Source: Vulcanimicrobiota bacterium (GTDB taxonomy: Bacteria; Vulcanimicrobiota; Xenobia; Xenobiales; JADMJV01). Taken from it: a DNA stretch of 64,000 nt. Under the pieces are notes generated by a model. That model did not search any database. It had not been told where the DNA came from and saw only the letters and a program-made list of their open reading frames with translations. This document shows, in pieces, positions 8,403-62,034 of this stretch. The stretch is taken from assembly GCA_019637395.1 (NCBI GenBank), contig JAHBVR010000001.1, positions 1 through 64,000 on the forward strand, in the 5' to 3' direction. The translations under genes were made by a program, and so were the position numbers. The first letter of the stretch is position 1, and each line of letters opens with the position of its first letter.

Positions 8403-9977
8403 GTGAAGATCCATTCTCAGGGAATTATCGCTCCTTTTACAGAGCCCCCGCGCAAGCAAGCCCAGGTCTCCAACCTTAGGGAAGATACCGTAACGATTTA
8501 CTCCTTCCCTGAACTCTCGCCCCTGAACCGGCCACAGTCAGCCCTGGTCAACAGTCAGAACTACAGCTTAAAAACTCTGGGGGGTCAACCGGCCGCTCGC
8601 CAAGCCCTGCAAACCCTGGCCCAAGCTCTAGAGCAGAACCACAAAGGCTGGCCCGTACTCCTGTGCGGTAATTCCGGCTCGGGTAAAACCACTCTATTGC
8701 GCGGTCTGGCCGGCGATCTTCAGAATGCCAACATCGCCACCGTGGGCGTGGAAGCGGACGCTCTGAACTCCGACAACCTGCAGGCTTACTTCAGTCAGGC
8801 CACTCAACTGGCCGACCAGAGTCCGCACGGCGTCAGCCTGCTGGCCCTGGAAGATCTCGATCTGGCCGCCCGCGTGCGCAGCAGCGAAGCTGGCGAAGTC
8901 AGCACCCGCCAGCATCAACTGCTGGCCTGTCTGTGCCGCAATTTAAAAGAAAATCCCAGAGTGGTGGTGGTGGCCACCACCAGCCGCCCGGAAATCGTCG
9001 ATCGCGAAGCCAGTGAACTCTTCCAGAAGATCGAAGTCAAGACGCCGTCAGGGCCCGAAGAGCGCCTGGAAATTCTCCAAAGCATCTGCCGGCAGCGCAA
9101 TATCCAGGCCGACCCCCAAGCCTTGCAAGAAATGGCCGAGGCGACCCGGGGTGATCAAACCAGTCAACTGGTCGAGCTGGCTCAAAAAGCCTCCCCCCAA
9201 GGCCTTATCACCCCTCAATCGGGCCGCCAGGCACGCCTGGAAAAGGTCTTTGGCGCGGCCGGGCCGGTTACTTTGGACGATGCCAATTTTCGCGTCACCG
9301 TTTGCCACGAACTCGGCCACGTGGTGGTGCGCCACCTTTTCCAGCAACTGGCCGAGCGTACCGGTCACCCGGAACATCTACCCCAAGCTATCGACAGCCT
9401 CAGTTTCGCCCCCCGGGGCGGCTCCAATGCGGCCGTCTTCCTGAAGAACTCCGGCAATCCGATCTCCAGCTTTGAATATTACTTTGCCGAAGTGTCCTCC
9501 AATCTGGCCGGGCGAGCCGCCGAGAACCAGTGCGGCGGCGGCCAACTCACGGCCGGACCGGCCGACGACATCCTCAATGCCACCCGGCTGACTCAGGAAG
9601 CCGTGCGCCTGAAAGGGATGGGCCAAAACCTGGGACCGTTTAACCCGAACAACGCCATGTCCGGCAATACGCTGAGGCTGGCTGAAGAGGATGAAGACCG
9701 CTTTACCAAGACAGCCGACCGGGCGGCCGCCAGCATCGTCAACTACTATCGCCCGATGATCGAGGATTACGCCGAGCAAATCGTGCTCAAGCGCAACGAT
9801 CCCGAGGCTCTCTGCGTGAGCGGAACCGATTTACTGCAGCGTATCAAAGATTGGGAACACGGGCGTCGGGAACCAGTGGAAAAGCTCCAGAATTGGGTAT
9901 CTAAGGAAATGGAATCGCTCAAACCCAAACCCCCCGCCATCTACGACCCGGTTAGCGATAAGCTGGTGGGCTATTAA
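8403..9977 (+). CDS. FtsH-like AAA ATPase with M41-type zinc protease domain, no membrane anchor
   Basis: 524 aa. The AAA module has Walker A GNSGSGKTT (residues 89-97), a Walker B-like LLALEDLD and a sensor-like VVVVATTSRPE. The C-terminal half carries HELGH (302-306) as the HEXXH zinc site and LAGRAAE...GPADDILNAT, equivalent to the FtsH segment whose Asp supplies the third zinc ligand (here near D389). FtsH normally has two N-terminal membrane helices; this protein has none, so it should be soluble. Start GTG at 8403 lacks a clear Shine-Dalgarno. Function is inferred as ATP-driven proteolysis; the substrate is unknown. The upstream 169 nt probably hold the promoters of this gene and the divergent EF-hand gene, but I could not identify boxes. 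Confidence 0.8.
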   Translation: MKIHSQGIIAPFTEPPRKQAQVSNLREDTVTIYSFPELSPLNRPQSALVNSQNYSLKTLGGQPAARQALQTLAQALEQNHKGWPVLLCGNSGSGKTTLLRGLAGDLQNANIATVGVEADALNSDNLQAYFSQATQLADQSPHGVSLLALEDLDLAARVRSSEAGEVSTRQHQLLACLCRNLKENPRVVVVATTSRPEIVDREASELFQKIEVKTPSGPEERLEILQSICRQRNIQADPQALQEMAEATRGDQTSQLVELAQKASPQGLITPQSGRQARLEKVFGAAGPVTLDDANFRVTVCHELGHVVVRHLFQQLAERTGHPEHLPQAIDSLSFAPRGGSNAAVFLKNSGNPISSFEYYFAEVSSNLAGRAAENQCGGGQLTAGPADDILNATRLTQEAVRLKGMGQNLGPFNPNNAMSGNTLRLAEEDEDRFTKTADRAAASIVNYYRPMIEDYAEQIVLKRNDPEALCVSGTDLLQRIKDWEHGRREPVEKLQNWVSKEMESLKPKPPAIYDPVSDKLVGY

Positions 9978-48686: not shown

Positions 48687-49001
48687 ATGCAGGCCTTCGC
48701 CGCCCTGGCCGACCCGACTCGACGCCGCATTGTGGAAATTCTGTCTCGGGGTTCCCTCTCGGCCGGAGAGATTGCCGGTCGCTTCACCATCACGGCGCCG
48801 GCTATTTCCCAGCACCTCAAAGCCTTGCGCCAGGCCCGGCTGGTCCGGGTTCGTCCGCTGGCTCAGCAGCGAATCTATGAACTCGACCCGGCGGGTATCG
48901 GCGAACTTTCGCAATGGCTGCAATCCATCCAGGCTTTCTGGGCCCCCCGACTGGATCGCCTGGGAGCCGCCCTGAAGGAGCCTCCCGATCATGAAAGGTG
49001 A
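48687..49001 (+). CDS. ArsR-family HTH repressor
   Basis: 104 aa. ADPTRRRIVEILSRGSLSAGEIAGRF and ISQHLKALRQARLVRVRPLAQQRIYELD match the winged-helix ArsR fold of the subgroup paired with SRPBCC proteins. It lacks the classical arsenic Cys motif (CVC), so the signal is not arsenic-type. It overlaps the next gene by 11 nt and probably represses its own operon. Confidence 0.9.
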   Translation: MQAFAALADPTRRRIVEILSRGSLSAGEIAGRFTITAPAISQHLKALRQARLVRVRPLAQQRIYELDPAGIGELSQWLQSIQAFWAPRLDRLGAALKEPPDHER

Positions 49002-49485
49002 AATGTCCCCCGTCCCCAGCGTGCGTTTTGAGCGCCGACTGCCCGGACCCATCGAGCGTGTCTGGCAGTACCTGACGGATCCAGAAAAACTTCCCGAGTG
49101 GTTCGGTCAGGGCACCATCGAACTCTGCGAAGGCGGGCAGGTCAGCCTGATGGATGGCCACATTCGCGGCATCGTCACCCAATGCCGCCCCCCGCACCTG
49201 CTCATCTACACCTGGAACGTGTTGGCGCCGGGGCAAACCGTCTCCGACTATCCGGAGTCCTATCTCAAGCTGGAGCTGGAAGCCCTCGAAGACGGTCAGA
49301 TCCTGCTAACCCTTACCCACCTGCCCATCCTGAAACGCTTCGAGAAGCAGAACGCCATGGGTTGGCACACCTTTCTGGACCTGATGGAGAACGGAGTCCG
49401 CGGCGGCCCACTCAAAAGTCGCCGGGACTTCATGCAGGCCAACGCGAGCCTTTACGGCGTGGATCTGACTCAGTTGGCGAAATAA
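48991..49485 (+). CDS. SRPBCC/AHSA1-type START-like protein
   Basis: 164 aa. SVRFERRLPGPIERVWQYLTDPEKLPEWF is the classical start of the family, and LTLTHLPI and MGWHTFLDLM the end. It should form a hydrophobic ligand cavity. ArsR plus AHSA1 is a common two-gene operon whose ligand is generally unknown. ATG 48991 (AAGGAG upstream) or ATG 49003 could be used. Confidence 0.88.
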   Translation: MKGEMSPVPSVRFERRLPGPIERVWQYLTDPEKLPEWFGQGTIELCEGGQVSLMDGHIRGIVTQCRPPHLLIYTWNVLAPGQTVSDYPESYLKLELEALEDGQILLTLTHLPILKRFEKQNAMGWHTFLDLMENGVRGGPLKSRRDFMQANASLYGVDLTQLAK

Positions 49486-49552
49486 GCTATTTTTCAGCTC
49501 GCCCGAGTAATCTGTGAGCATAAAGCTACACACGCATTCGGAGGGTAAGATT

Positions 49553-49831
49553 ATGTCGCTGGTTGGTTCACCGTTTGGCAACTGCTGGGGTACGGGCCGT
49601 CCTCAATCCAAGAGACCGGCTGAGAAGCGCGCAGAGAAGCCTCCCGCCGAGGAGCCCCAGGAGACCTACCGCCCGCGTCGCAACGAGCCTTTCGGCAACT
49701 GCTGGGGAACCGGCTCGGCCAAATCCAAGAAGCAGGCTCCCAAGAGCGAAGGCCAGGAACCGGTCGAGAAGTATTACGAGAGCTTCAACCCCACCCGCAA
49801 CGAACCGTTCGGCAACTGCTGGGGCACCTAG
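49553..49831 (+). CDS. Small protein with three exact PFGNCWGT motifs at 39-residue spacing
   Basis: 92 aa, ATG 49553 after GGAGGGT. The motif PFGNCWGT occurs at residues 7-14, 46-53 and 85-92; the last ends the protein. The period is exactly 39 residues. The linkers are hydrophilic, Lys/Glu/Pro-rich (SKRPAEKRAEKPP, SKKQAPKSEGQEP) and end in RNE before motifs 2 and 3. The three DNA copies differ at synonymous positions, so the motif is under selection. There is no signal peptide and no known domain. It looks like a multi-core precursor peptide or a three-site binding protein. A DUF385-type gene follows 55 nt on. Confidence 0.8.
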   Translation: MSLVGSPFGNCWGTGRPQSKRPAEKRAEKPPAEEPQETYRPRRNEPFGNCWGTGSAKSKKQAPKSEGQEPVEKYYESFNPTRNEPFGNCWGT

Positions 49832-49886
49832 ATTCAAGTATTCCGGTTCCTATCCATAAGCTTTTGAGCGGGCATATCCTCTGGAT

Positions 49887-50264
49887 ATGCCCGCTCCTCG
49901 TTGGTTAGCTAAATTCAACCGCTACGTCACCAACCCGCTCCTCAGCGGAATAGCCCGGGTTCTTCCGTGCTTTGGCATCGTACGCCATTTGGGACGTCGC
50001 AGCGGTCGGGCCTATGAAAATCCGGTTTGCGTCTTTCGATACGGATCGATCTATACCATCGCCCTGACCTACGGTCCAGAAGCCGATTGGGTGCGCAACG
50101 TGCTTGCCCAGGAAGGCTGCACCCTGGTAACTCAGGGGCGCCTGCAAAAGCTTACCCAACCTTTCCTGTTCTACGACCCCGAACGAAGAGCCGTCCCTCC
50201 CCTGATCGCCCGCCTGCTCGGCCTGGGGCGCGTCAACTACTTCCTCGAGCTTCGCGCGGCCTAA
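49887..50264 (+). CDS. DUF385/Ddn-like nitroreductase-family protein
   Basis: 125 aa. LPCFGIVRHLGRRSGRAYENPVCVF, IALTYGPEADWVRNVLAQEG and a C-terminal FLELR match deazaflavin-dependent nitroreductase (Ddn/PF04075) proteins, which bind F420. Whether this one uses F420, FMN or heme cannot be read from the sequence. The LLM-type gene nearby supports F420 use. Confidence 0.75.
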   Translation: MPAPRWLAKFNRYVTNPLLSGIARVLPCFGIVRHLGRRSGRAYENPVCVFRYGSIYTIALTYGPEADWVRNVLAQEGCTLVTQGRLQKLTQPFLFYDPERRAVPPLIARLLGLGRVNYFLELRAA

Positions 50265-52839: not shown

Positions 52840-58943
<6,104 letters not shown>

Positions 58944-58947
<4 letters not shown>

Positions 58948-60359
58948 AACCTTCGCTCCAATCGCTATCTCCGGAACAAAAGCGGGCCATGCTGGCCCGC
59001 CTGCTCAAGCAGCAGGCGGCCGTGTGCAAGACCGCCTTCATCCTGCAGGGTCTTTATCTGGACTGCATCCTCAGCCATGGACCGGTATGGAACATGCGCT
59101 CCACCGTGCGCTTTCTGCACAAGCAAGATCCGGAACGGCTGCGCGAACGCACCCAGCGCATTGTCGATCGCCACCCGGCCCTGCGCACCACTTACCATGT
59201 GCCCAAAGAAAAGGAAATCGAATACCACGCCAAGGTTCTCATGATCCGCTTGGATTCGCTGGGGCTGCATGAGCTCAATAGCGAGTGCCTGGTGGAGCAG
59301 CGGGTCCACGAAAACCACCAGCTCGACTTTAAGCTGGTGGACGCCCGTGACTGGAGCGTGGAACAGGTGCGCGAGGCCCTGCTGGCCGATGCTCTCGAGC
59401 CTTTCGATATGGGCAAGTTGCCGGTCTGCCGCTTGCGCCTCTACCAGAGAGAAAACGAAGATATCATGCAGTTTGACGTGCACCACTGCGCGGCCGACCT
59501 GTGGAGTCTCGAGCAAATCATGGCCGAGCTGGAAATCCCCCCCGAAGATCCGCCTCCTCCCAGCTTCGCCGAGTTCTGCGCCTGGCAGCACGCCTGGTTC
59601 GCCCTGCCCAAAGCCGAGGAAATGCGTTCCTGGTGGATTCAGGAGCTGGCTCACTGCCCTCACCTGGCCTTCCCCCACTCGGAGGGCGACGATCACGCCT
59701 TCAAGGTGTTCTTTCGCCTGGAGGGAGAGGTCGTCGAGCAGGCCCGGCAGATCTGCCGCAGCCATAAGATCACCATGTTCAACCTGATGCTCTCGACCCT
59801 GCAGGCCACCCTGGGCGCCGACTTGTGCCTGGATGACTTCGCCATCGGCGGTGCGGTGGCCAACCGCCCCCATCAGCGCTTTGACCAGACCATCGGATTT
59901 TTCGCCCAGTTAGTGCTCTACCGCCGCAAGCTTCACGAGTTGAAAAGCTGGCAAGAACTCTGGGCGGCCAACCGCACCACCATCAACGAGGTGGTCAGTC
60001 GCCAGTTTTTTCCGGTGGTCACCACCCTGCCGGTGCCGCGCACCGACGTCTGGATTATGTTCCAGCAGTACCAGAAGGCGCGCTGGGTGGAAGGGGAAAC
60101 GCCCGCCCGCGAAGATCTGGGGCTGCGCAGCGGCGGCCTGATCAGCAGCCCGCTCGGCCCCTGGGAATTTCTCTTCGTCGACCCCCCCTTCAACTCATCG
60201 CCGGTCCAACTGGAAATCGTCGAGCAGAAAGACGCCCTGCAGGGAATTTTGCACTATCGAGTGAGCTGCTTTTCCAAGAAAAAAGCGCGTTTCTACGTCG
60301 AAGATTTTCAAAAGCGCCTGCGCGCCTCGCTGGCCGATCCCGCCTCGCCTATTGCTTGA
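58944..60359 (+). CDS. Stand-alone condensation-domain acyltransferase
   Basis: 471 aa. The catalytic motif HHCAADLW (HHxxxD, residues 180-185) belongs to the NRPS condensation / PapA superfamily. RIVDRHPALRTTY is the conserved first-lobe motif and TIGFFAQLVLYR a late one. No adenylation or carrier domain. ATG overlaps the PKS stop (ATGA). It very likely takes the chain from the PKS carrier domain and joins it to an alcohol or amine, as PapA5 does after Mas. Confidence 0.88.
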
Positions 60360-60401: not shown

Positions 60402-61505
60402 ATGATCACCCGCATATACGCCGACAACTACAAATCGCTGAGCAATTTTACTCTCGAGTTGAAAAGTCTCAGTCTGATCCTGGGCGAGAATGGAACGGGC
60501 AAGACCACGGCGGTTGAGGTGGTCGACAAGCTGCGGCGGTTGGTGGTCGAGGGTCAGTCCTTGGGGGATTTGTTTGCACGGAAAAGCTGCACTCGTTGGG
60601 ACGAACGTTTGCAGCAAAAATATGAGCTGGACTTGACTGAGCAGGGCTCGGAGTACCGTTACCTCCTGACCCTCGAGTTCTGGGGAGTGGATGGTTGCCG
60701 AATCCTCAGTGAGAAGCTCCTGTTAGGGGGGAAGCCGCTCTTTGAGGCTGAGCTGGCGGGCGATGGCGATTTTCAGACCCAGTTATATCGAGATGACCAT
60801 TCCAAGGGGCCCAAGCTCCTGTCTGATTGGGAGCGATCCGGCCTGGCTCGACTGCAGGCTCGTCATGACAATACGAAGTTAGTGCGCTTTCGCCAAAGGC
60901 TGAACGAAGTCTTTTGGGTCACGGTGGATCCCTGGGGGATGAAAGGGCGCTCCGAATCGGAAGATGCCCGACCCGATCCGACTTTGAGCAATTGGGTCTC
61001 GTGGTATCGGCACGTGCTCCAGGAGGAGAACGGCTTTTTCGTGGGACTACAGAAAGATGTAGAGCAGGCCATACCTGGTTTCAGAGACTTGCAGTTGAGC
61101 AAGGTCGGCTCCAGCCAGCGCGATCTTCGGGTTCAGTTAGGCTCGCACTACTACGACTTGATGGAACTTTCGGAAGGCCAGAGAACCCTGTTGGTCCTTT
61201 ATATTCTGCTTCACCGAGCCATCCGGAGCGGTCAAACTTTGATTCTGGACGAACCCGAAAATTTCGTCACTCTACGCGAAATGCAGCCGTGGCTAACGGC
61301 AGTTCAAGATCGTGTGGCGGAGGGGGCTCAGGTCGTTTTGATTTCTCATCATCCTGAGTTCGTAAACTACCTGGCAGCGGACTGCGGCATCGTGTTTTCC
61401 AGAGAGGCAGGTACTCCGGCGCGAGCCAAACGTTGGGAGGAATCGGAGTCCACCCTCGCTCCGGCCGAGTTGATGGCCCGAGGACTGCTCGGTGCCGCCG
61501 AATAG
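60402..61505 (+). CDS. AAA ATPase, RecF/OLD-like (AAA_21 type)
   Basis: 367 aa. Walker A GENGTGKTT (near residue 30), Q-loop and signature region MELSEGQRTLLVLY, Walker B ILDEPENFV and switch His ISHHPEF: an SMC/Rad50-like ATPase head without a long coiled coil. Codon choice seems less C-ending than the flanking genes, hinting at transfer. It overlaps the next gene by 14 nt, so the two work together. Similar ATPases pair with nucleases in anti-phage systems such as PARIS, Septu and OLD/Gabija. Confidence 0.85.
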   Translation: MITRIYADNYKSLSNFTLELKSLSLILGENGTGKTTAVEVVDKLRRLVVEGQSLGDLFARKSCTRWDERLQQKYELDLTEQGSEYRYLLTLEFWGVDGCRILSEKLLLGGKPLFEAELAGDGDFQTQLYRDDHSKGPKLLSDWERSGLARLQARHDNTKLVRFRQRLNEVFWVTVDPWGMKGRSESEDARPDPTLSNWVSWYRHVLQEENGFFVGLQKDVEQAIPGFRDLQLSKVGSSQRDLRVQLGSHYYDLMELSEGQRTLLVLYILLHRAIRSGQTLILDEPENFVTLREMQPWLTAVQDRVAEGAQVVLISHHPEFVNYLAADCGIVFSREAGTPARAKRWEESESTLAPAELMARGLLGAAE

Positions 61506-62034
61506 AAAGCCCTACGCCGTCCTCCTCGTCGAAGACACCCAGCAAGAGAGCCTGCTCCGTCAGGCGCTATATCTTAAGGGATGGACTCGTCACGACATGC
61601 GCATCGTGAAGAGCCCGGCAGGAGCGGGTTCGGGCAAAGCATTTGTGCTGTCGCAATTTCCATCAGAGCTGCGGGAATTGCGCAGGCAACTGAGAGCCGC
61701 CGTCCTCCTGGCCGTAGTGGATGCCGACCAGCAAACGACCGGCGAAGTCCTGGCTGCACTCAAGAAGTCCGTCGCCGACTCGGGACAGGCACCGGTCGCC
61801 AGCGAAGAACCCGTGGCTCGTCTCGTTCCCAGACGCAACGTGGAAACCTGGCTGTGGTTCCTGCAAGGCCATCTAGTGAACGAGGGCGAGGACTACAAAA
61901 ACAAGGTCGGTGAAGTGGGCTGCTGGAAAGACGAGGCGGCCAGGTGGCTGGCCGGTTGCGCGTCTTCTTTCGATAACGCTCCCCCGTCGCTGGCTGAATC
62001 TTGCGCAGAGTTGCAGCGAGTGGGCCTGAGTTAA
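61492..62034 (+). CDS. TOPRIM-like putative nuclease partner of the AAA ATPase
   Basis: 180 aa, GTG start at 61492. AVLLVEDTQQESLLRQAL could be the TOPRIM Glu motif and LAVVDADQQT the Asp-x-Asp motif. RLVPRRNVETWLWFLQG near residue 115 resembles conserved segments of proteins encoded next to AAA ATPases, from memory only. No membrane segment. The stop overlaps the convergent methyltransferase by four bases. Probable effector of a two-gene module, but I cannot name the exact family. Confidence 0.65.
   Translation: MPPNRKPYAVLLVEDTQQESLLRQALYLKGWTRHDMRIVKSPAGAGSGKAFVLSQFPSELRELRRQLRAAVLLAVVDADQQTTGEVLAALKKSVADSGQAPVASEEPVARLVPRRNVETWLWFLQGHLVNEGEDYKNKVGEVGCWKDEAARWLAGCASSFDNAPPSLAESCAELQRVGLS

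Follow-up and report, generated by a model that had tools for sequence, protein, structure and literature searches.

The window, by which we mean the whole 64,000-nucleotide stretch analyzed, contains a real and constrained gene for a 92-aa protein in which, judging from its sequence, the octapeptide PFGNCWGT is held fixed within a diverged 39-aa tandem duplication. Our favored reading, which is tentative and which we consider quite possible, is that the product may act as a cytosolic disordered tether whose PFGNCW(GT) copies dock a putative partner and cluster or bridge it, with the same peptide serving as an address tag on an unrelated protein of a sister species. The comparisons involved the genome of the window (G000), two congeneric genomes (G001 and G002), the sister species (G003), a further member of the same genus (G004), and a member of the same family (G005).

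The motif recurs with a start-to-start period of exactly 39 residues, twice, and the protein terminates with copy 3 (Table 1), in agreement with the number, spacing, and terminal position given in an earlier sequence-only reading of this DNA. Compared pairwise, the 24-nt motif copies differ by 4, 3, and 2 bases, exclusively at third codon positions and with no change of amino acid, so the earlier statement that the motif is invariant while its DNA copies diverge synonymously also holds. When the residues of the 92-aa protein were shuffled (5,000 trials), the longest triple-repeated string was ≤4 residues, and none of the other window frames of ≥50 aa contains a complex 7-mer three times. The linkers had been described as drifting, and divergence was indeed seen, but they are not unrelated: units 1 and 2 share 12 of 31 linker residues, including E-[T/S]-[Y/F]-x-P-x-R-N-E ahead of the next motif. 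The protein is thus a diverged tandem duplication rather than a motif set amid unrelated linkers. No signal peptide or transmembrane stretch was apparent on inspection of the sequence. The AF2 prediction, a weak model built on 3 aligned sequences, shows no secondary structure (pLDDT 57, pTM 0.13), and the chain is predicted to be disordered; by this model the protein combines two hallmarks of a multivalent linker or scaffold, a disordered chain and a repeated conserved motif.

Table 1. Positions in the window of the repeat gene, its internal units, and its flanking signals.
Feature	Position	Strand	Evidence or remark
92-aa protein, MSLVGS-PFGNCWGT-linker-PFGNCWGT-linker-PFGNCWGT (ATG 49553, stop 49829-49831)	49553..49831	+	ORF, orthologues, codon-position pattern
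Motif copy 1, aa 7-14	49571..49594	+	
Motif copy 2, aa 46-53	49688..49711	+	
Motif copy 3, aa 85-92, C-terminal	49805..49828	+	kept in G002; G001 has ...PFRYPGNI instead
Linker 1 (31 aa), homologous to linker 2; a charged, Pro-rich segment predicted to be disordered	49595..49687	+	
Linker 2, 31 aa	49712..49804	+	
Conserved upstream stretch, TATTTTTCAG ... ACACACGCATTCGGAGGG, including ribosome-binding site GGAGG	49490..49552	+	alignment of three orthologous loci
Strong hairpin 3' of the gene, 14-bp stem, GAGCGGGCATATCC-TCT-GGATATGCCCGCTC	49866..49896	+	fold -27.9 kcal/mol, z = -4.75

Orthologues are encoded by the two congeneric Ca. Eremiobacterota genomes, with 90% identity in G002 and 82% over 86 aa in G001. 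The G000-G002 differences at codon positions 1, 2, and 3 number 3, 3, and 34, and Nei-Gojobori counts gave 1 nonsynonymous to 8 synonymous changes for the motif segments and 9 to 22 for the linkers, which indicates constraint on both, stronger on the motif. A spurious ORF was considered and rejected because orthologues with this third-position substitution pattern exist; the ribosome-binding site, the downstream hairpin, and the mostly synonymous differences between orthologues likewise establish the gene as real. All three motif copies are retained in G002. The G001 protein has exact copies 1 and 2, its copy 3 being replaced so that the C-terminus reads ...REPFRYPGNI; three copies are therefore not essential. 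The earlier suggestion of a trivalent binding scaffold is accordingly upheld in part: predicted disorder, strict motif conservation, and reuse of the peptide in G003 favor a scaffold, but "trivalent" was too specific.

The signals that flank the gene suggest a single-gene transcription unit, since the ∼60 bp upstream with the ribosome-binding site and the hairpin after the stop codon are conserved at all three orthologous loci. GGAGGG precedes the ATG, and the conserved upstream stretch is the probable promoter region of the gene itself; no sigma-70 consensus promoter was found upstream. Equivalents of the hairpin are present in G001, G002, and G003. It is probably a terminator or a processing element; the T-run of a textbook terminator is absent from it, and no T-tailed terminator was called.

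Searches of Pfam, NCBIfam, PHROG, and PADLOC returned no family above cut-off for the repeat protein, the best PDB match had an E value of 0.57, and no homologues were found in phages, plasmids, or viral contigs. The assertion that no family with PFGNCWGT had been described is thus borne out in these libraries, and the possibility raised with it, that the motif might prove to be a known domain such as a zinc site, an SH3 ligand, or another structural element, found no match above cut-off. A literature search for FGNCWGT retrieved no paper. The wider genome search proposed in the same reading restricts the family to one genus: a scan of 85,000 species genomes recovered the two congeneric orthologues and none outside the genus, and a profile search with the repeat unit gave only weak, chance-level matches besides the known loci. 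A search of 149 phylum genomes for the N-terminal pattern, allowing ≤3 mismatches, found it in G000-G003 only, and neither the repeat gene nor the G003-type protein described below was found in G004 or G005. The repeat gene is lost or absent at the G003 and G004 loci. Candidates for further PFGNCW or MSLVGSPF proteins were discarded, since everything else in the genus that matched FGNCW or MSLxGSPF lay in short frames of non-coding appearance. The pattern GGNAAYTGYTGG occurs 50-65 times per genome in G000-G004 versus 7-27 times for its reverse; a genome-wide GNCW protein family was rejected on inspection of these matches, which were mostly short or stop-limited frames unlike the motif protein, and the over-representation in the genus is apparently not a protein signal.

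The peptide was found again in G003 at the start of a different protein. This 146-aa protein, encoded on the - strand at C141:9042-9479 (also L016:9042-9479), begins with MSLVGSPFGNCW, the same N-terminus that is formed in the window protein by copy 1 and the six residues before it, and then continues into an unrelated, non-repetitive body, so that it carries one N-terminal motif copy. All 12 residues of MSLVGSPFGNCW are identical between the two proteins, with 11 of the 36 bases differing and the serine codons drawn from different families (AGT/AGC against TCG/TCA). The G003 gene has its own ribosome-binding site, AAGGAG, and is unlinked to the original locus. Its body has no match in G000-G002, no accepted relative among 148 phylum genomes, and nothing in Pfam or PDB. 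We considered whether it might be a piece of Fpg/MutM, since 38 aa show a 45% match to the stretch between the MutM domains; with a per-genome E of ∼0.01, this match is at chance level over 148 genomes, and together with the empty Pfam and PDB searches it was not accepted. When the protein was modeled alone, its first 13 residues formed no helix, and the helices predicted for the body were of low confidence. This model is also weak; the body is probably helical, and the predictions for both proteins are weakly consistent with disorder. The syntenic locus of G003, L084 (G003:C130), lies at about 8500-8720 of the reverse complement and lacks the repeat gene; it contains a gene for a small hydrophobic protein, then the hairpin, and then a decayed DDN-like gene. 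Identical residues, differing DNA, and unrelated bodies point to a portable N-terminal peptide module, probably selected as a peptide and carried on two proteins, with one such fusion known.

The neighbors of the repeat gene in the window encode an ArsR regulator, an AHSA1 protein, a DDN-like deazaflavin-dependent oxidoreductase, an F420-type LLM oxidoreductase, an HDAC-fold hydrolase, a PKS, and a condensation-domain protein. None of them tracks the repeat gene across the compared species, and there is no conserved operon partner. The DDN-like gene is not beside the repeat gene in G002, and a 175-aa flanking gene is common to the loci yet also occurs in species without the repeat gene. The upstream ArsR/SmtB-type regulator gene (48687-49001) matches the HTH_metalloreg model; the ArsR-family and AHSA1 pair (48687-49485) is species-variable, G002 having just an ArsR-like gene and G001 neither gene at that position. 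Farther downstream, 52840-60359 encodes a single-module PKS of 2,035 aa and, after it, a stand-alone condensation-domain protein; together with the F420-type oxidoreductases and HDAC-fold hydrolase upstream of the PKS, these form a possible biosynthetic cluster. A candidate two-gene defense module lies at 60402-62034, where an AAA-ATPase with best matches to AbiLi/OLD-like defense ATPases is accompanied by an overlapping 180-aa partner.

For the tether that we favor, the gene product would be small, cytosolic, and intrinsically disordered, and we infer that the PFGNCW(GT) copies serve as short linear motifs, each docking on one partner, either a protein or a membrane-bound complex. The charged 31-residue linkers would set a fixed maximum spacing of two or three docking sites, copies of the partner would be clustered or bridged, and copy number would tune avidity; the peptide at the N-terminus of the G003 protein would act as an address tag, directing that protein to the same partner. 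The third-position-only motif differences, the 3/3/34 pattern, the structureless AF2 model, and the reuse of MSLVGSPFGNCW in G003 all favor this proposal, as do the lack of any enzymatic or structural family match and of an apparent signal peptide or transmembrane stretch. The selected triple motif suggests a repeated docking tag rather than a recognizable peptide antibiotic. Against the tether stand the failure to find a further motif protein in the genus, so that no client network is seen, the loss of the third copy in one orthologue, the Cys in every copy, which suggests chemistry beyond docking, and the facts that four genomes only carry the peptide and that the disorder comes from a shallow model. 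A broader proposal, that PFGNCW is an undescribed bacterial address or docking peptide (an octa- to dodecapeptide, repeated or N-terminal) that recruits proteins to an assembly peculiar to this genus of large-genome Eremiobacterota, we regard as doubtful.

Identical Cys-Trp octapeptides between charged, Pro-rich, drifting linkers could also be the cores of a multi-core RiPP precursor, cross-linked at Cys/Trp by an unlinked enzyme and freed from the linkers by proteases, and the PKS and condensation-domain gene downstream indicate secondary metabolism in the region. Scans with Pfam, covering about 38 of the window ORFs, identified no maturation enzyme of the classes sought (radical-SAM, YcaO, LanM/LanB/LanC, ATP-grasp (graspetide) ligase, MNIO, P450, and linked peptidase/transporter cassettes), and thus none of the linked radical-SAM, YcaO, or protease genes that the sequence-only reading had proposed to look for. 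Copy 1 begins at residue 7, which leaves no room for a leader, the linkers are conserved between orthologues, and the G003 protein, which is non-repetitive, has just one copy of the peptide. The RiPP interpretation offered in that reading has therefore lost its main supports, and we consider it quite unlikely; were it correct, the protein would be a multi-core precursor that has neither a leader nor a linked enzyme. The single Cys per motif, always kept together with its neighboring residues, could instead bind a soft metal or contribute to a redox-sensitive set of thiols, perhaps with a buffering role, and the ArsR/SmtB-type gene that lies upstream in both the window and G002 would fit such a function. 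That gene is not seen beside the repeat gene in G001, however, and here it is paired with an AHSA1 gene; ArsR-AHSA1 pairing is common and unrelated to metals. The protein has no CxxC and no His ligands, and conservation of F, G, N, W, and P is as strict as that of Cys, more than a simple metal site would require. This thiol or metal function is also quite unlikely, and both Cys-based chemistries, RiPP and metal/redox, are weaker explanations than the tether.

Encapsulin loading peptides, such as LTVGSLRR, are loosely similar to MSLVGS, and a short, portable terminal peptide together with an encapsulin gene in G000 (PF04454, E 2e-95) raised the idea of targeting to an encapsulin or as shell cargo. 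No encapsulin was found in G001, G002 (82% complete), or G003, all of which have the peptide, and SLVGS is missing from copies 2 and 3. With no shell gene found in three of the four peptide-bearing species, such targeting is unsupported; encapsulin cargo as a family-wide role is largely refuted, the shell gene having been found in G000 alone among G000-G003, and we rate this explanation as very improbable. An orphan gene with a lineage-specific role, for example as a regulatory or anti-phage peptide, would mean that the repeats go back to an old tandem duplication and that the motif has been retained so that it can fold on a partner. Confinement to one genus and the lost or absent gene at the G003 and G004 loci agree with this account; the lack of a match to defense or phage families and of a conserved operon partner speaks against it, and we judge it unlikely, though worth retaining. 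At present the proteins constitute a well-conserved orphan family rather than a demonstrated new system. If the motif is a docking tag, a short peptide (SLVGSPFGNCWGTG, RNEPFGNCWGTG) would be enough for a pull-down that would directly reveal the partner, and it would provide a clean handle on cell organization in an uncultured phylum; docking tag or leaderless RiPP, the finding would be new either way, if true.

Among known systems, encapsulin cargo-loading peptides resemble the peptide studied here in being short, terminal, and portable between proteins, but differ in that most species bearing the MSLVGSPFGNCW peptide yielded no encapsulin gene. Multi-core RiPP precursors, which include those of cyanobactins and graspetides, have identical short cores between drifting spacers. 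The repeat protein shares this layout; it differs in having no leader or linked enzyme that could be found, in its conserved linkers, and in the presence of the peptide on an unrelated protein as well. The carboxysome protein CsoS2 is a disordered repeat scaffold with sticker motifs. The pyrenoid Rubisco linkers EPYC1 and CsLinker (PMC11570498) are likewise disordered scaffolds in which sticker motifs are repeated. The repeat protein is like these three in its short conserved motifs, regular spacing, charged disordered chain, and species-variable copy number, but it is far shorter (92 aa with 2-3 copies), has no sequence similarity to them, and uses an extended Cys-Trp peptide rather than a helix as its motif, with clustering only proposed here. 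We conclude that the family and its motif are new to the libraries searched and that the architecture, in which a disordered chain carries short repeated motifs, is a known one.
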